From Sphingomonas sp. 28-63-12 (GTDB lineage Bacteria > Pseudomonadota > Alphaproteobacteria > Sphingomonadales > Sphingomonadaceae): 64,000 nucleotides of DNA. The notes under the pieces are model-generated. The model saw nothing but the letters and a program-made list of their open reading frames with translations, searched no databases and had not been told where the DNA came from. This document shows positions 1-6,848 of this stretch, one piece after another. The stretch covers positions 62,001-126,000 of the forward strand of contig NCGD01000008.1 in the NCBI GenBank assembly GCA_002281535.1, given 5' to 3'. The position numbers and the translations under genes are program-made. The first letter of the stretch is position 1, and each line of letters opens with the position of its first letter.

Positions 1-1
1 G

Positions 2-589
2 GCGGCATTCAGCCGCAACTTTTATGCCGCGCCCCCGCTACTCGCCCGCATGGTCAAGAGCCGCCTGTTGTTGCCACCCGATCTCTTGCGGCTGTACGAA
101 AGGCAGGATGCCCGCGCGCTCGATGTCGCGATGCTGCACGCCATCCAACGCCTTCCGCATCCCAACCAGGCGATCGAATCTGCCAGTTGCGGGCTGTTGT
201 TGACGAACCCGATGCTCGACAAGCGCATCGTGGCATTTGGGCAGGCCATACCGGAACATCTTCATTTTGCCGACGGCCGGATGCGCCACCTTGCCCGCCT
301 GGCCCTGCAGGACATCCTGCCACCGGCACTGCTCGCAGCTGCGCGCGGACAGGAATATTTCGACCCAAGCTTCAGGGACACCGTCGACGGCATGACGGCG
401 GCGATCACTGACCTAATCACCAGGATGGCCGACAATCCAGTCCTCAACAACTATATCGATGTCGATCGCCTTCGCGCCGACCAGCAAGCGGGACAATTGT
501 TGGACGGCCCGCCCAGCCAGGCACTGCGGCTCATCAACACGCTCAGAATTGCGCGGTATATTGATTGGTTTGACCGCCAAAATCGATGA
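2..589 (+). CDS. Asparagine synthetase-like lasso cyclase (C protein), 3' part
   Basis: The reading frame is open from base 2, so the gene begins upstream of the window and only the C-terminal ~195 residues are visible. The stretch around bases 185-330 has the typical C-terminal pattern of class B asparagine synthetases: NPMLDKR, a hydrophobic helix, P-x-x-L-x-x-x-DG-x-x-R, then DILPPALL. In lasso-peptide systems this family activates a core Asp/Glu side chain with ATP and closes the macrolactam ring. That role is inferred from a candidate precursor (707-868) and a lasso-type B2 protease (4558-5055) nearby; the fragment alone cannot separate a lasso cyclase from other AsnB homologues. The ATP-binding region is outside the window. 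It is convergent with the precursor, which is unusual because lasso A and C genes are normally co-directional. Confidence 0.72.
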   Translation, partial: AAFSRNFYAAPPLLARMVKSRLLLPPDLLRLYERQDARALDVAMLHAIQRLPHPNQAIESASCGLLLTNPMLDKRIVAFGQAIPEHLHFADGRMRHLARLALQDILPPALLAAARGQEYFDPSFRDTVDGMTAAITDLITRMADNPVLNNYIDVDRLRADQQAGQLLDGPPSQALRLINTLRIARYIDWFDRQNR

Positions 590-706
590 AATTACGGCGC
601 AAAGACGGCCCGTCGGGCTAGCTGGTGAGGGTCGTCTCTGCCAGCCAGGTTGATCGCTAAATTGGGTTACAACCCCGGCCAGGATACCGCAGCCAGGGCA
701 AGATCA
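590..706. other. Convergent intergenic gap
   Basis: 117 bases separate the stop of the cyclase fragment from the stop of the minus-strand precursor ORF. I see no convincing terminator hairpin followed by a T run on either strand. Confidence 0.4.
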
Positions 707-868
707 TCAACTGACTGGGCCACCCATGCCACCAGGGACCCCCGGGACCGGCTGACCTTCAGGAGTGGACGGTGAGCTGCCTGACAACGTGTCCAGAACA
801 ATCTCCGAGACAATCACCAAAGGCGTTTGCCAGGGGCGTTTCGGCTCAACGTCATCTCGATTAGTCAT
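707..868 (-). CDS. Candidate lasso/RiPP precursor peptide (53 aa)
   Basis: This short ORF starts with ATG (868-866) and stops with TGA (709-707). An AAGGGG Shine-Dalgarno-like run lies 7 bases before the start. The first ~28 residues look like a lasso leader: a charged N-terminus (MTNRDDVEPKR), then WQTPLV at 13-18, which fits the (Y/W)-x-x-P-x-(L/V) motif bound by PqqD-like B1 proteins. Residues 29-53 are Gly/Pro/Ser rich. If Thr27 is the conserved -2 residue, the core begins at Ser29 and Glu37 is position 9, the right spacing for a 9-residue isopeptide ring; a Gly30-Glu37 8-residue ring is the alternative. The tail ends in GGMGGPVS. There is no Cys in the peptide, so the nearby thiol oxidoreductase would not act on it directly. 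The assignment is inference from motif spacing and neighbours; Ser1 is rare in known lasso peptides and the orientation is unusual, so another RiPP class is possible. Confidence 0.6.
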   Translation of the reverse strand: MTNRDDVEPKRPWQTPLVIVSEIVLDTLSGSSPSTPEGQPVPGVPGGMGGPVS

Positions 869-1251
869 AGTTTAGCCCCTTACCCATGCCATTTTGACAG
901 CAATCTCCTAAACAATAGTGGGAGCCATGTCCATATACCCGCGCCCCAACTGCGCAGTCAGCTGCTCCCCTGACGCCGCCAGCTATTTTGTCATTGCCCT
1001 ATGGCAAAGTTAATCCACTATCGGAAAATTTATGACGAAGCTGACCTTATCGCATTTTATAGCATTGATTGATTTCAAGACTCACATCGGACGACATATC
1101 AATAACAATGATATTACGGTAACAAAATTGTTGCAGCGCACCTCAACAATGGCCTTGCAACGTTTTTCGAGATTCTTATGCTTGCAGGCATCAAGGCCCG
1201 TTAATCGAGTCGTTTTGGAAACGGCGCACAATACCAGGGGGAGGCGTTACA
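869..1251. promoter_or_regulatory. AT-rich divergent regulatory region
   Basis: 383 bases lie between the precursor start (minus) and the first tail-collar gene (plus). Bases ~1000-1180 are clearly richer in A and T than the rest of the window. A TTGACA box is present on the plus strand at 894-899, but no good -10 stands at the right distance. The region should hold divergent promoters for both units. Small ORFs inside it (927-1013 and 1032-1271, plus) lack coding-like composition or collide with the next start, and I do not call them. Confidence 0.45.
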
Positions 1252-1761
1252 ATGAATCCGTTCATTGGTGAAGTGAAGCTGCTACCATGGAATTGGGCGC
1301 CGAAGGGATGGGCGTTTTGTGACGGCAGGCTCTTGCCTATTCAACAAAATACGGCACTCTTTTCTTTGCTTGGCACCCAATATGGTGGCAATGGAACCAC
1401 TAATTTTGCTTTGCCCGATTTGCGCGGCCGCACGCCTGAACACTATAGCAACTCCCTGCCGCAAGGCGCGGCAGTTGGCGTAGAGACCGTTGGCCTGACG
1501 CTGACGACGATGCCCGCCCATACACACGGGTTTTCTGCAACATCGGCAACGGCGAGCGCCAATTCGGCGGCTAATGCGATCATTGGTACCGATCCTTCGG
1601 GCCCAATCGACTTCCTGGCAGCCGGCCCTGCCGCCCCCTTTACCATCACCCCAACATCGATCGGCATTACCGGGAATGGCATTCCGCACGAAAATATGCA
1701 GCCCTATCTGGTGATGAACTACTGCATCGCCCTGGTGGGCATTTTCCCGTCACGCAATTGA
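1252..1761 (+). CDS. Phage tail-collar domain protein 1 (Mdp-like)
   Basis: 169 residues. The N-terminus reads PFIGEVKLLPWNWAPKGWAF, followed by FCDGRLLPI and FALPDLRGR near residues 50-60, the hallmark of the tail collar domain (Pfam Phage_Collar; microcystin-dependent protein MdpB family). The end, GIFPSRN, is shared exactly with the two following paralogues. A strong GGGGGAGG site precedes the ATG. Members of this family outside phages are small trimer-forming proteins of unclear function, often in tandem sets, and no other phage morphogenesis gene is near. It is the first gene of a run of three paralogues plus an acetyltransferase. A central Ala/Ser/Pro-rich segment (residues ~85-135) is where the paralogues differ most. 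Confidence 0.85.
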   Translation: MNPFIGEVKLLPWNWAPKGWAFCDGRLLPIQQNTALFSLLGTQYGGNGTTNFALPDLRGRTPEHYSNSLPQGAAVGVETVGLTLTTMPAHTHGFSATSATASANSAANAIIGTDPSGPIDFLAAGPAAPFTITPTSIGITGNGIPHENMQPYLVMNYCIALVGIFPSRN

Positions 1762-1797
1762 ACAATCGCCGCTGCAAGAAAAAGAGGGAGGGGCGCC

Positions 1798-2334
1798 ATG
1801 TCCGAACAATTCCTGGGTGAAGTTCGCATGTTTGGGGGCAATTTTGCACCGACAGGCTGGGCGTTGTGCAATGGCCAATTAATGTCGATCTCGCAGAATT
1901 CGGCGCTGTTTTCGCTGATCGGCACCACTTATGGCGGCGACGGCGTGCAGACATTTGGTTTGCCCGACATGCGCGGGCGCTTGCCGATCTCGCAGGGCAC
2001 TGGCCCGGGCCTGACGCCCCGCGTGATTGGCGAAAGGGCAGGCACGGAGAACGTCACGTTGCTGACGGGCAATCTCCCGGCGCACCAGCACCCATTCAAT
2101 GTCTACAACGCGCCAGCGACCACCTCGACTCCCGGGCCAACGGTTCTTCCCGGCGTCCCGACCGGCGCAGGCAAGATCTATACTGTGCCGACGAATTTGC
2201 CGACGACCACTGATCAATATGCGCCCGGTGCCGTCACCATGACGGGTAACAATCAGTCGCACACCAATTTGATGCCCGCCTTGTGCGTCAGCTTCATCAT
2301 TGCCCTGCAGGGCATCTTCCCAAGCCGCAACTAG
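1798..2334 (+). CDS. Phage tail-collar domain protein 2 (Mdp-like)
   Basis: 178 residues, paralogous to its neighbours. It has FLGEVRMFGGNFAPTGWALC at the start, FGLPDMRGRLPI near residues 57-68, and PAHQHPFNVY, the His-containing PxHxH turn common in these proteins. It ends in GIFPSRN. GAGGGAGGGG lies just before the ATG. The 36-base gap after gene 1 and the 17-base gap to gene 3 suggest one transcript. The middle, from ~residue 105, is rich in Thr, Pro and Gly and would be the exposed variable part if it folds like a collar or fibre trimer. Function is not known from sequence. Confidence 0.85.
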   Translation: MSEQFLGEVRMFGGNFAPTGWALCNGQLMSISQNSALFSLIGTTYGGDGVQTFGLPDMRGRLPISQGTGPGLTPRVIGERAGTENVTLLTGNLPAHQHPFNVYNAPATTSTPGPTVLPGVPTGAGKIYTVPTNLPTTTDQYAPGAVTMTGNNQSHTNLMPALCVSFIIALQGIFPSRN

Positions 2335-2351
2335 CACGCAGGAGCAAGCTT

Positions 2352-2885
2352 ATGGCAGAGCCATTTATCGGTGAAATCCGGGCCCTCGGCTTCCACTTCA
2401 ATCCGCGGGGGTGGGTATTTTGTAACGGCCAGTTGCTGCCGATCGCGCAATATTCCCCGTTGTTCGCGGTGATTGGCGTTATCTATGGCGGCAACGGAAC
2501 AACCAATTTTGCGGTCCCCAACTTCCAGGGCGTTGCCCCGATGGGATGGGGCAACGGCCCCGGCCTGACTTCACGGCAGATCGGCGAAACCAGCGGCACA
2601 CCGTCTGTGACGCTGACCGCGCAGGAGATGCCAGGCCATAACCATTCGGCCAATGGACTGGTACCGTCCAATGCCCCCGTTCAGCAGAGCAATACGCCCA
2701 CCGCCGATGCCGGCCTGGGAACGTCGCTGGGGGCAAAATTATTTGCCCCCCCACCGGCCACCACCACCATGGCCCCGCAGGCGATCGGCCAGATGGGCAA
2801 TTCACTCCCGCATGAGAATCAGCAACCGTTGCTGGCGCTGAATTTTTGTATCGCAACCGAAGGCATTTTCCCGTCGCGCAATTGA
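2352..2885 (+). CDS. Phage tail-collar domain protein 3 (Mdp-like)
   Basis: 177 residues from the ATG at 2352, which has a GCAGGAGC ribosome site; the open frame extends upstream to 2283 but that stretch only overlaps gene 2. PFIGEIRALGFHFNPRGWVF opens the protein. The collar motif is altered to FAVPNFQGVAP where genes 1 and 2 have (A/G)LPD(L/M)RGR, so this copy has diverged at the most conserved site. PGHNH is present and the C-terminus is again GIFPSRN. The stop overlaps the ATG of the GNAT gene by one base (TGATG), indicating translational coupling. Confidence 0.85.
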   Translation: MAEPFIGEIRALGFHFNPRGWVFCNGQLLPIAQYSPLFAVIGVIYGGNGTTNFAVPNFQGVAPMGWGNGPGLTSRQIGETSGTPSVTLTAQEMPGHNHSANGLVPSNAPVQQSNTPTADAGLGTSLGAKLFAPPPATTTMAPQAIGQMGNSLPHENQQPLLALNFCIATEGIFPSRN

Positions 2886-3460
2886 TGTCGATGAACCACC
2901 CCATCCCCGCGACGCCGCCGGTCCTTCCCCTGCCGGCGGCGCTGCTGGATGATGGTTACCGTTTGCGGGCCGAGACCGACGCAGACTTGCCGTTCCTCCG
3001 CGCGCTCTATGGATCGACCCGGGACGAAGAACTCGCCCAGTTGGCGACTTGGTCGGGCGCCCAGAAGCAGGCTTTTATCGCGCAGCAGTTCGACGCGCAG
3101 CGCAGCCATTATCGCCACTATTTCCCTAATTGTGCTTTTGACGTGATCGAGCAGCATGGCCAGCCCGTCGGGCGCTTCTATCTCGATCGCCGCGCAACCC
3201 AGCTCCACGTGATCGATATCGCGCTGATGCCGCAGTGGCGCGGCATCGGCCTTGGCACGGCGATCCTAACCGCCTTGATTAAAACCGCAGCGCAAGCGGG
3301 GCTTGGCGTTGGCATCTTCGTCGAGAAATTCAATCCAGCGCTACGGCTCTATCGCCGGCTGGGCTTTGTGGAGATTGCTGACACCGGCGTGTATCTGGAA
3401 ATGGAGCAAATCATCAGCGGCGACCCCGGCGCAGGCGGCGCACCGGCCAATGTCAGTTGA
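2885..3460 (+). CDS. GNAT family N-acetyltransferase
   Basis: 191 residues from ATG 2885. The acetyl-CoA binding motif A is visible as QWRGIGLGTAIL (RGIGLG at 119-124), preceded by the strand LHVIDIALMP and followed by NPALRLYRRLGFVEI, the standard GNAT beta6-beta7 end. The substrate cannot be told from sequence. Its start overlaps the stop of tail-collar gene 3, so it belongs to that operon and may modify one of its products or a peptide made by the locus; this is inference. Its last 8 bases overlap the convergent DUF6916 gene. Confidence 0.85.
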   Translation: MSMNHPIPATPPVLPLPAALLDDGYRLRAETDADLPFLRALYGSTRDEELAQLATWSGAQKQAFIAQQFDAQRSHYRHYFPNCAFDVIEQHGQPVGRFYLDRRATQLHVIDIALMPQWRGIGLGTAILTALIKTAAQAGLGVGIFVEKFNPALRLYRRLGFVEIADTGVYLEMEQIISGDPGAGGAPANVS

Positions 3461-3758
3461 AGCTCGCTGCATAGTGCACGCCGTCATCAACCCGCTTGAT
3501 GGGACCAATGAAAATTTCCAGCGCCCCCATCCCGGCATGCTGGAAGGGGTAACTGCCCTGGGGGAGCACATCGTCCGACGCGCAATGGAATATCAGCGTG
3601 AACGCGTCGCGTTTCTGCCCAGCCCAATCGGTGCGCAGGCCACGTTCGACCGCCACCAGCGTCATCGGCATCTCCGCGCCATCGATGCTGGTGACGGTGA
3701 ATGACGAACCAAGATGCGGCGCGAAATCATCCTGAACCAACAAGCTGTCGTCAATCAT
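3453..3758 (-). CDS. DUF6916-like small protein
   Basis: 101 residues. It resembles the DUF6916 family: an N-terminal FAPHLGSSFTV segment, alternating short beta strands (MPMTLVAVERG; AFTLIFHCAS), a Gln-Gly-(S/T)-Tyr turn, and a closing segment on a physical or structural Ile-Phe-Ile-Gly-Pro strand (EIFIGPI). No catalytic motif, signal peptide or membrane segment is visible. A strong GGGAGGAA site precedes the ATG. The family recurs near tail-collar proteins (recalled association, not checked here), which fits this position. It could be a chaperone or partner of the collar proteins. Confidence 0.6.
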   Translation of the reverse strand: MIDDSLLVQDDFAPHLGSSFTVTSIDGAEMPMTLVAVERGLRTDWAGQKRDAFTLIFHCASDDVLPQGSYPFQHAGMGALEIFIGPIKRVDDGVHYAASFN

Positions 3759-3855
3759 CGCCGTTCCTCCCTTCGCCTTGGCCGGGCCCTCCCGACAGGC
3801 TGGCCGATCCGGGCAGCGCGATCAAGCCCCTGTCTGGCCGGTGTTTTTCAGCCAG

Positions 3856-4503
3856 TCATCCCTCGGCCGCAATCGCTCGCAGCGCCTTTTCAAAGGCCTC
3901 GGGCGGCTGGCCGCCCAGGATCAGATATTTGCCGTTGATGACCACCGCGGGCACGGCGCTAATCCCGCGCGTCCGCCACAATTGCTCGGCGGCGCGGACG
4001 TCCTCGGCATATTGGCCCGAGGCCAGTACCGCGCCTGCCGCGACCGGATCGAGCCCCACCGCCGCCGCCGCCGCAACCAGCACCTGGTGATCGCCCGGAT
4101 TCTGCCCATGGGTAAAATAGGCCTCGAACAAGGCATTTTTCAGCGCCGCCTGGTGGCCGCTTGTTTCCGCCCAATGCAACAGCCGGTGGGCGTCGAACGT
4201 GTTGTATATCCTGCTGTCGCTGGAACCGGCCATCGTAAAGCCAAGCTCGGCGGCGCGCGCGCGGATCGTCTCCCGGGTCGCGGCCGACTGTTCCGGCGTT
4301 GCGCCATATTTTTGCGCAACATGCTCCATGATGTTCTGTCCCTCAGCCGGCATATCCGGGTTGAGCTCAAAAGGCTGGAAGGTTATCGTTGCCTCAACAA
4401 CATCGTTACTGCGGGCAAGCGCCTGCTCCAGCGCGCGCAGGCCGATAATGCACCATGGGCACGAGACATCGGAAACAAAATCTATCTTCAGGCGCGTACG
4501 CAT
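3856..4503 (-). CDS. FrnE/DsbA-like thiol oxidoreductase
   Basis: 215 residues from ATG 4503; the frame is open to 4557 but only this start leaves the usual family N-terminus (KIDFVSDVSCPWC). It is a DsbA-superfamily protein of the FrnE subgroup: thioredoxin strand, CPWC at 15-18, an all-alpha insertion with FELNPDMP and a GxSxDSRIYNTFDAHRL stretch, and the cis-Pro loop GISAVPAVVINGKYLILGGQP near the end. No signal peptide is seen, so it is probably cytoplasmic. It lies 54 bases downstream of the lasso B2-like protease on the same strand. Since the candidate precursor has no Cys, its link with the peptide, if any, is indirect. Confidence 0.85.
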   Translation of the reverse strand: MRTRLKIDFVSDVSCPWCIIGLRALEQALARSNDVVEATITFQPFELNPDMPAEGQNIMEHVAQKYGATPEQSAATRETIRARAAELGFTMAGSSDSRIYNTFDAHRLLHWAETSGHQAALKNALFEAYFTHGQNPGDHQVLVAAAAAVGLDPVAAGAVLASGQYAEDVRAAEQLWRTRGISAVPAVVINGKYLILGGQPPEAFEKALRAIAAEG

Positions 4504-4557
4504 CGTGACATGAGTCCAGCTATAACGGGCCACCATCCTAACGCCGACGGACACCAA

Positions 4558-5055
4558 TTACAGTGCCGAACACGTGGCCGGCACAAAACAGCTTATCGCG
4601 ACGTAATCGCGCGGAACGGGGTAGCCAATCACCCTGATACCGACGGCATCGAGCCATGCGTGCGCCTCAATCTCACCCGAGACCGTCGAGACGCCGAAAT
4701 AAGTGAATGCCCCGATGCCCCGGACGTTCAGCATCGCATGGGCTGCAATCGCTTGTTCGAGGCATTTGGCGCGAAACGGCATGAACCGTGCAATCGCACC
4801 CACTGCCCAACCCACATCGCGCGCCAACCGCGCAGCCGTCAAATCCGCCACACTGATCGGCGCCTGCAACGCGGGCACATCGAGTGCCGCGATCATCGTG
4901 CCGAGCCTGGCCGACACGCTGGCCCAGCCATGCTGCCGCAACAGCCAGCGTGCGCGACCCAGCTGGACGATCGCCTGCAATACCAGCAATTGACGCCGCG
5001 GGCCCACGCTAATCAGCGTGCCCAGCTTCCGCGTCATCGTCGCTGCCCGTGTCAT
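4558..5055 (-). CDS. Lasso peptide B2-type transglutaminase-like leader protease
   Basis: 165 residues from ATG 5055 (AGAAGG 6 bases upstream); ATG 5037 is a close alternative. The N-terminal half is helical (RRQLLVLQAIVQLGRARWLL). The C-terminal half carries the papain/transglutaminase-like motifs of lasso B2 proteins: RFMPFRAKCLEQAIAAHAML with the candidate nucleophile Cys98, and EIEAHAWLDAVGIRVIG with His132. In lasso pathways B2 cuts the leader, guided by a separate B1 leader-binding protein; no PqqD-like B1 domain is fused here or found in the window. Divergent from the ABC exporter across a 77-base gap. The family match is strong; pairing with the precursor at 707-868 is inferred. Confidence 0.82.
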   Translation of the reverse strand: MTRAATMTRKLGTLISVGPRRQLLVLQAIVQLGRARWLLRQHGWASVSARLGTMIAALDVPALQAPISVADLTAARLARDVGWAVGAIARFMPFRAKCLEQAIAAHAMLNVRGIGAFTYFGVSTVSGEIEAHAWLDAVGIRVIGYPVPRDYVAISCFVPATCSAL

Positions 5056-5132
5056 CTGCGCCTTCTGCTCAAGCTCGGAAAAATAGCGGGCGAGCCTGCA
5101 AAAGCCAAGCATTTCGCCCGGCGCGTCCTGCG

Positions 5133-6848
5133 GTGACACGGGCGAGATGGCCAACATTCCGGCGCTATGTCGGCGCGCTGATCACGAGCAGCGGCAAGCG
5201 CGGTGCGTACGCGTTCGGCGCGATTCTGCTGGCGGCGTTGTTCGAGGGGCTTGGACTGGCACTGCTCATCCCGATCATCGGCCTTATCTTGGCCCCCGGC
5301 GGCAGCGATGCCGGCAATGGCAGGGCCCAGATGCTGATTCACGGGGCGCAAGCCATGCTTGGCGACGATCGGCAACGGCTGCTGGTCACGGCGCTGGGCG
5401 CGTTCCTGCTGGTGATGATCGTCCGCGGCGGCGTGATCTTCGTGCGCGACCGGATGCTCTGGCAGCTCCAGCACTGCTTCATCGCAGAGCAGCGCAGCCG
5501 GCTCGTTACCCAGCTTGCCGAGGCCAACTGGTCTGATCTGGTTACGCTCGATCATGCCCGGGTGACCAGCCAGTTGAGCGGCGAGATTGCCCGCGTCTCG
5601 GTCGCCACGACAATGACCTTTCAGATCATTGTCGCGCTGGCGATGCTGATCGTTCAGGGTGGGCTGGCCCTGCTGATCGCGCCCGCCTTTGGCGCGTTGA
5701 TCCTGATCCTGCTGGCCGCGATCACCCTGCCGGCCCTGTCCCGGCTTGACCGGATCGGCACGCTTGGCCAGCACAGTACGCGCGGCCATGCCGAATTGCT
5801 GTCCGCAATCAATCAGTTGCTGAACGGGCTGAAGGTCGCGCTCGCCCAGGGCATGGGTCGGCATTTCTCGCGCGAGTTCGATACGCTCCAGGCGCGGCAC
5901 CTGGGCATCCAGCGCGAATATTCACTGGGCCGGGCGCGCGACCAACTGATCTTCGGGCTCGTCGCGGCGCTGGCCATGACCCTGCTGGTCGGGATTGGCG
6001 TGACCCTCTTCGGCCTGTCGGCAACGATCGTCGCCACCATGATCGTCATCTTTAGCCGCATCGCCGGGCCGGTCCGGTCGCTGCAGCAAGCCGTACCGCA
6101 ATTATTCTTCATGCTGCCCGCTTTTGAATCGGTCACGGCGCTCGGCGCCACGCTGGCGGCGGCGCGTGCCATGCCGGCCGAGCCGCAGCCGCTGCCAACC
6201 GGGCCGCTTGCCTTTCGCGACGTCCGCTATCTCCATCCACCGGGTGGCGGGGTCCGCCACGCATCCTTCACCCTGGCCGCAGGCGAATGTGTGGGTATTT
6301 GCGGACCATCGGGTGGCGGCAAGACCACCTTGCTCGATCTCGCCGCAGGGCTGCTGATGCCGCAGTCAGGCAGTATCTGGGTTGGCGACGCCCCGCTCGA
6401 CGCCCCCCGGCTGGCGGCGTGGCAGGACCGCATCGCCTATGCCACGCAGGAGCCGTTCTTGTTCTTCGGCAGCGTGCGTCATAATATTTGTTGGGGTGGG
6501 TCTGCCGATCCGGCGGATCTATCGGCGGCGATTGGCCTGGTTGGCGCAACGGCGCTGATCGAGGGGCTGCCCGATGGGATTGATACGCTGGTCGGTGAGC
6601 GCGGGGCCTCGCTGTCCGGTGGCGAGCGCCAGCGGCTGATCCTGGCACGCGCGTTGCTGCGCAAGCCGGCATTGCTGATCCTTGACGAGTCGACCAGTTC
6701 GCTCGATGCAGCGTCGGAGGCGGCGATCCTGGCAGCGTTCCGCCGTGTCACGCCGCGCCCGGCGATTCTGTTCGTAACCCACCGCGCCGAGAGCCTTGCC
6801 CTGTGCGACCGCGTGCTGACGATGGACAACGGCACGATCATCGACTGA
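5133..6848 (+). CDS. ABC exporter (fused permease-ATPase), likely peptide export
   Basis: 571 residues from GTG 5133, chosen because the upstream frame to 5049 only overlaps the divergent B2 gene and is not membrane-like. The N-terminal part has about six membrane segments (for example residues 25-55, 85-110, 165-205, 275-305). The nucleotide-binding domain has Walker A GPSGGGKT (391-398), signature LSGGE (494-498), Walker B LLILDE (514-519) and the H-loop His (~550). There is no N-terminal C39 peptidase, so leader cleavage must happen elsewhere, matching the B2 protease next door. McjD-like transporters export lasso peptides and give self-immunity; that role is inferred from position. No strong ribosome site precedes the GTG. 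Confidence 0.83.
   Translation: MTRARWPTFRRYVGALITSSGKRGAYAFGAILLAALFEGLGLALLIPIIGLILAPGGSDAGNGRAQMLIHGAQAMLGDDRQRLLVTALGAFLLVMIVRGGVIFVRDRMLWQLQHCFIAEQRSRLVTQLAEANWSDLVTLDHARVTSQLSGEIARVSVATTMTFQIIVALAMLIVQGGLALLIAPAFGALILILLAAITLPALSRLDRIGTLGQHSTRGHAELLSAINQLLNGLKVALAQGMGRHFSREFDTLQARHLGIQREYSLGRARDQLIFGLVAALAMTLLVGIGVTLFGLSATIVATMIVIFSRIAGPVRSLQQAVPQLFFMLPAFESVTALGATLAAARAMPAEPQPLPTGPLAFRDVRYLHPPGGGVRHASFTLAAGECVGICGPSGGGKTTLLDLAAGLLMPQSGSIWVGDAPLDAPRLAAWQDRIAYATQEPFLFFGSVRHNICWGGSADPADLSAAIGLVGATALIEGLPDGIDTLVGERGASLSGGERQRLILARALLRKPALLILDESTSSLDAASEAAILAAFRRVTPRPAILFVTHRAESLALCDRVLTMDNGTIID

Follow-up and report, generated by a model that had tools for sequence, protein, structure and literature searches.

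A probable precursor gene within a kinase-bearing lasso peptide cluster of a Sphingomonas-like genome

A 53-residue open reading frame (ORF) located at positions 707..868 of the window, on the minus strand (868→707), is in all likelihood the precursor gene (A) of a class II lasso peptide, the class without Cys, as judged from its sequence. By the window we mean the whole stretch of DNA analysed, 64 kb in length, which corresponds to bases 62001-126000 of contig 51 in a draft genome of 54 contigs. Gene A very probably belongs to a kinase-bearing lasso cluster of a Sphingomonas-like host, and this cluster is cut by the left edge of the window. An equivalent ORF occupies the same slot, convergent with the lasso cyclase gene C, in 13 of 17 close loci, the window included.

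Precursor gene and biosynthetic neighbours

Translated from its ATG, the ORF reads MTNRDDVEPKRPWQTPLVIVSEIVLDTLSGSSPSTPEGQPVPGVPGGMGGPVS. It exists as the first-pass annotation had described it, except that its strand has to be corrected to minus. The features which that annotation had read in it are all found again: W-x-x-P at residues 13-16, Thr27-Leu28 before Ser29, Glu37 at position 9, no Cys, and a good ribosome-binding site, namely AAGGGG at 876..881 (minus), 7 nt before the ATG. Residues 1-28 (785..868, minus) would form the leader, which carries the aromatic-x-x-P motif as W13QTP16 within WQTPLVI, the stretch expected to bind B1, and which would place Thr27 at -2 from the predicted cleavage site. 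Residues 29-53 (710..784, minus) would form the core, SGSSPSTPEGQPVPGVPGGMGGPVS, with Ser29 as position 1, Glu37 as position 9 and Ser53 as the expected kinase site; the lasso precursor rule of Thr at -2 and an acid at core positions 7-9 is seen here as T27 and E37 at 9. A pattern picked after the ORF had been seen, W..P.[VIL], then 15-45 residues with Ser as the last, matched this ORF only among the 531 short ORFs (30-130 aa, six frames) of the 64 kb window. No Pfam model matched the window precursor, a promoter and terminator scan of 560..1260 returned no pattern, and Rfam gave nothing reaching gathering score in the window.

Linked B1, B2 and C genes are present at the locus. On the plus strand to the left of the window (contig stretch L007), the order is ST1, an HPr-kinase-like gene, ST2, B1 and C. 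Gene C, the 3′ end of which lies at 1..589 (plus), encodes 636 aa and starts 1,322 bases left of the window (contig 51 position 60679). Its best match is the lasso cyclase model NF033535 (E 2.1e-100; 337 bits, below the cut-off of 525), and it also matches PF00733, above cut-off, and GATase_7. It carries an SGGFDS motif, and Ser replaces the glutaminase Cys at position 2 (Met-Ser start, not Met-Cys), which we take to be consistent with loss of the glutaminase step. B1, the PqqD-like leader-binding protein, matches PF05402 above cut-off (64.7 bits), its best NCBIfam model being the lasso PqqD model NF033536 (72 versus a cut-off of 80). The leader peptidase gene B2 (4558..5157, minus) scores 70.5 bits with NF033537, the cut-off of which is 33, and is the one match in the whole genome to PF13471, also above cut-off; Cys132 and His166-Ala-Trp were read directly in it. 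The HPr-kinase-like gene (L007 8558-9514, start about 8558) shows, in order, a His, GPSGAGKS with the P-loop Lys, and Asp-Asp, and its family scores (TIGR04352, 41.6 bits, cut-off 200; PF07475, 29.4) are below cut-off. With respect to their best NCBIfam models, C, B1 and the kinase are all below cut-off and B2 is above.

Two sulfotransferases are candidate further tailoring enzymes: ST1 matches Sulfotransfer_3 with 21.7 bits, below the cut-off of 27, and ST2 matches PF00685 with 53.4 bits and contains SYPKSGNTW and RDPRD, which we take to be PAPS-binding motifs. An Asp/Asn-hydroxylase-like gene (PF05118; L007 6587-7261, minus), divergent from ST1, perhaps encodes an extra tailoring enzyme, and past it lie two minus-strand genes that are AraC-type by eye. 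An ABC transporter gene (5049..6848, plus; PF00005, E 9.7e-29; PF00664 below cut-off; true start probably inside) is a candidate for the exporter D. Directly after B2 there is a gene for a DsbA-like protein (3856..4557, minus; PF01323, E 1.8e-38), although the lasso core is without Cys.

By analogy with characterised systems, B1 would bind the WQTPLVI stretch of the leader, and the HPr-kinase-like enzyme would phosphorylate the Ser53 hydroxyl on the linear precursor. B2 would then cleave after Leu28, with Thr27 at -2, and C would activate the Glu37 side chain and join it to the Ser29 amine, giving a ring of nine residues that encloses a Gly/Pro-rich tail of 16. Export of the lasso product may fall to the ABC transporter.

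Recurrence of the precursor slot in related loci

At E <= 1e-60, C as query retrieved five of 397 family genomes, one of them that of the window itself. The fifth, G197, is laid out differently and was left out of further counts. The other three, G123, G091 and G155 (L071-L073), contain the same cassette as the window, described below, and in each of them a short convergent ORF lies between C and the first of the collar genes. These gap ORFs read ...PWSTPTVIRSELSQTAAHVTRFTDGSHAGISYGS (L071), ...LWSTPTVIVSDIAQSGAGVALATDGTSTGGYQYGS (L072) and ...QWETPVVIIASAERATLTSFNTVIPDTQATSTSQGS (L073). A scan of named genomes with a C alignment confirmed 532 relatives and listed 78 of these loci. The best 14 of the 78 (L082-L095, of which L086 is the contig of L073) were examined for precursors; for the remaining 64 (L096-L159) the gene content alone was read. 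The window, L071-L073 and the closest among the matches listed make up 17 distinct close loci.

As a slot ORF we counted any convergent ORF that is at least 50 aa long, has WxxP, ends in Ser and has its 3′ side within about 230 bases of C. Such an ORF is found in 13 of the 17 close loci among the matches listed (the window, L071, L072, L073, L083, L087-L092, L094 and L095), several of which are close kin, so that the 13 cases are not independent events. In the remaining loci the picture differs: the convergent ORF of L085 has the motif and the terminal Ser, with only 38 aa and too short a core; L082 and L093 contain YxxP-type ORFs, which with one exception share the strand of C (of six viewed, four have a final Ser and another a final Thr, one listing having been pre-filtered for Ser/Thr ends); and no ORF of L084 was judged to be a precursor. 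Judged by match to the window proteins among the matches listed, all loci but L082, a 4.6-kb contig that carries C only, have the kinase, ST2 and B1 (each 16 of 17); ST1 is present in 10 loci and the hydroxylase-like gene in 11. The ABC transporter and DsbA-like genes had no labelled match in the 16 close relatives.

The cores vary among the 13 loci, and a leader motif is kept. The motif W.[TSV]P.VI is present in 12 of the 13 slot loci versus 2 of the 2047 other short ORFs found there, counts that describe rather than test, because the slots had been selected by the looser WxxP motif. Conserved orthologues with variable cores beside the same genes, which the first-pass annotation had proposed to look for, are borne out in this way, and its reading of the ORF as a lasso precursor gains support from them as well as from the presence of B1, B2 and C. 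Both of the non-slot ORFs with W.[TSV]P.VI are tandem paralogues in L092 (11926-12629, minus; Erythrobacter colymbi), where three precursor paralogues with similar leaders stand in tandem. Two precursor candidates are also seen in L083 (11917-12072 and 12358-12663, minus; Rhizomicrobium electricum).

With the precursor alone as query against the 397 family genomes, nothing but itself was retrieved below E 0.01 (best other match, E 0.0104). At E <= 0.1, 34 of the 397 genomes matched, the window's own included, and G091, G123 and G155 were absent even at E 0.1; it was by position that their precursors came to light. An initial motif filter, which required Thr at -2, a small first residue and the motif inside the first 40 residues, failed on the precursors of these same three genomes. 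The group was found by position, not by sequence search, and the nine members tried, the window precursor and 8 relatives, match no NCBIfam model. That the precursor-only search found no relatives, together with the shortness of the ORF, might speak for a chance reading frame. The slot, its orientation, the leader motif and the terminal Ser nevertheless recur in 13 of 17 loci among the matches listed, and the probability of a chance frame is close to nil; we rejected it on this recurrence and on the single pattern match among the 531 short ORFs of the window.

The first-pass annotation had also allowed for a better precursor near the cyclase, upstream of base 1. When the 26 kb surrounding the cyclase, taken as two overlapping stretches with 141 and 165 short ORFs, were screened with a leader-plus-ring motif filter, the precursor ORF and three more passed: one lies some 8 kb to the left of C, and two are antisense within collar genes. 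As the filter demands Thr, Ile or Val before the core, a precursor of the Ala or Ser type would be missed. A better precursor elsewhere was rejected on the slot recurrence (13/17) together with the motif screens of the window and of the cyclase surroundings.

Core register, terminal serine and likeness to known systems

Five precursors, those of the window, L073, L083, L091 and L094, have a Thr 14 residues past the leader Trp. In the window, L073 and L094 this Thr is followed, by reading, by Leu and then Ser or Thr, with an acid at 9. This common Thr-Leu/acid-9 arrangement and the Thr spacing in L083 and L091 favour Thr(-2)/Ser1/Glu9 as the best register for the window. A Ser1 ring had been held unusual in the first-pass annotation; it is not isolated, since Sphingomonas mali (L094), with TL followed by SNFNSGGID, has the same Ser1/acid-9 layout. 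The two candidates of L083 have Lys1 and an acid at 7 when placed in the Thr(-2) register. Eight other loci (L071, L072, L087-L090, L092 and L095) read best with a core that starts 15 residues after Trp, which puts Ala, Gly or Asn first and the acid at position 8 or 9. At -2, L071 then has Thr, L072 and L087 have Ser, and L088, L089, L090, L092 and L095 have Ala. If these registers are right, Thr would stand at -2 in 6 of the 13 precursors and Ala or Ser in 7. Lasso leaders carry Thr at -2 nearly always, and these seven would offer a natural series on which the peptidase rule can be tested.

The same lasso precursor might be cut after Ser29, with Gly30 as position 1, Glu37 as position 8 and Leu28 at -2. 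Gly1 is typical of lasso cores. According to the available part of PMC10368454, moreover, Ile or Val at -2 is known in kinase-bearing lasso clusters, Sphingomonadales included, and this cut puts W13 at -17, where that source places the leader Tyr. It would throw away, however, the Thr at -2 that also stands 14 residues after Trp in L073, L083, L091 and L094, and in a paeninodin-type system the leader Trp is at -15 (PMC13381572, in part). Trp spacing varies between these systems (-17 versus -15) and is therefore not decisive on the register. We regard cleavage after Ser29 as unlikely and retain Thr(-2)/Ser1/Glu9.

A terminal Ser is present in all 13 slot ORFs versus 196 of the 2047 remaining short ORFs of these loci, a count only partly independent of the slot choice, so that the figure to judge by is the 13 of 17 loci. 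In the window, this residue, unremarked in the first-pass annotation, goes together with the HPr-kinase-like gene to the left. Terminal Ser and kinase together point to C-terminal Ser phosphorylation as in paeninodin, and the lasso product is likely phosphorylated on its last residue, Ser53. PadeK-type kinases phosphorylate the C-terminal Ser of the precursor (available parts of PMC9266682 and PMC8498205). The window kinase has the residue order His-Lys-Asp-Asp, the motif named for lasso kinases in the accessible text of PMC9266682, and the precursor has, besides its C-terminal Ser, Trp and not Tyr in the leader motif, as is the rule for paeninodins (PMC13381572, in part). A C-terminal Ser is not the universal kinase site, given that BsfK targets Ser3 and its precursor ends in Asp (PMC10368454, in part).

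An acid lies 22-24 residues past the leader Trp in all slot ORFs but one (12 of 13); the exception, L091, has no acid at ring distance. This retention bears on whether the product could instead be a linear phosphopeptide, similar to the LPP family, with C serving another purpose. LPP and paeninodin clusters have biosynthetic enzymes in common, as stated in the available part of PMC13381572, B2 and C are 4 kb apart in the window, and a collar-bearing relative (L176) has kinase-like, B1 and B2 matches with no C match in 14 kb. According to the same partial source, on the other hand, LPP clusters are without a macrolactam cyclase. Since the window has a C gene free of internal stops that adjoins A, and nearly all slot ORFs retain an acid at ring distance, we consider a linear product very improbable and a lasso product the preferred reading.

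The window cluster appears set up to operate as paeninodin-type systems do. Paeninodin and its relatives have, like the window, split B1 and B2 proteins, an HPr-kinase-like enzyme and a C-terminal Ser, and the paeninodin ring, too, ends in Ser-Thr-Pro-acid. The WxxP leader is shared with PadeA/PadeK (paeninodin) and ThcoA/ThcoK of Bacillota (PMC13381572, in part), and some paeninodin-type clusters have a sulfotransferase gene (PMC8498205, in part), the window cluster having two. Unlike in those systems, A is convergent with C in the window and a tail-collar cassette lies alongside. Paeninodins are called Bacillota-restricted in the portion available of PMC13381572, whereas the window cluster is alphaproteobacterial, which suggests that the design of WxxP leader, kinase and terminal Ser also runs in alphaproteobacteria. 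Likened by description only, SyanA/SyanK of Sphingobium yanoikuyae is another sphingomonad precursor with a kinase and a C-terminal Ser (PMC9266682, in part). BsfA/BsfK of Bradymonas sediminis is a kinase-bearing lasso cluster that departs from Thr(-2): BsfK acts on Ser3 and BsfA ends in Asp with Ile at -2 (PMC10368454, in part), whereas the window precursor has a terminal Ser and Thr, or in the rival register Leu, at -2. Sphingocin, of the benenodin family, shares a sphingomonad host with the window (Sphingomonas BPH), but its precursor ends in SDD, and its operon is adjoined by genes for an isopeptidase and a TonB-dependent receptor; neither a kinase nor a sulfotransferase is named in that paper (PMC11006600).

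The tail-collar cassette

Beside A, the window carries a plus-strand series of three collar-type genes, a tail-collar-domain protein (1252..1761; PF07484, E 1.2e-26) and two tail-collar-type proteins (1798..2334 and 2352..2885; phrog_9116 tail protein, E 3.7e-22 and 7.5e-21), followed by a GNAT acetyltransferase gene (2885..3460, plus; start uncertain; the longest ORF, from 2846, matches PF00583 with E 2.9e-11) and a DUF6916 gene (3453..3758, minus; PF21880, E 8.3e-26). Among the matches listed, 12 of the 17 close loci have this cassette (1252-3758) beside A, namely the window, L071-L073, L087-L092, L094 and L095. In these 12 loci A and the first collar gene diverge, with 53-383 bases between their first start codons (383 in the window), true starts being uncertain and L086 standing for L073 in this count. 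Among the 64 more distant listed loci, some of them short contigs, collar genes occur in three (L106, L139 and L147). Some distant loci have the cassette genes in the neighbourhood of kinase, B1 or lasso genes. DUF6916 is found in 10 of 298 family genomes, and lasso-type enzymes lie on the same stretch in six of the ten (G000, G091, G155, G123, G065 and G268); of the other four, G205 has ST1, G245 a weak kinase match, and G160 and G260 none, so that the association recurs and is not exclusive.

The roles of paeninodins are given as unknown in the available part of PMC13381572, and the recurrent cassette is a concrete lead on what a lasso peptide of this group may do. A single alphaproteobacterial functional unit, in which a phosphorylated and perhaps sulfated lasso peptide would be produced along with the collar-like proteins and act through or on them, for example as a ligand or cap, is a speculative and rather improbable proposal, which, if true, would give the group a partner and a role. 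The open-access literature searched contained no link of a lasso peptide with tail collar, microcystin-dependent protein or DUF6916.

In L176, positions 1-4300 hold collar, DUF6916 and GNAT genes beside the kinase-like, B1 and B2 matches. In a Croceibacterium MAG (L147 13723-13914, minus; contig shared with L177), a candidate WxxP precursor ending in FGS adjoins and converges with B2, not C. A short WxxP ORF of G205 (L172 6139-6429, plus), a possible precursor, lies about 4 kb from a group of GNAT, DUF6916, collar and ST1 genes.
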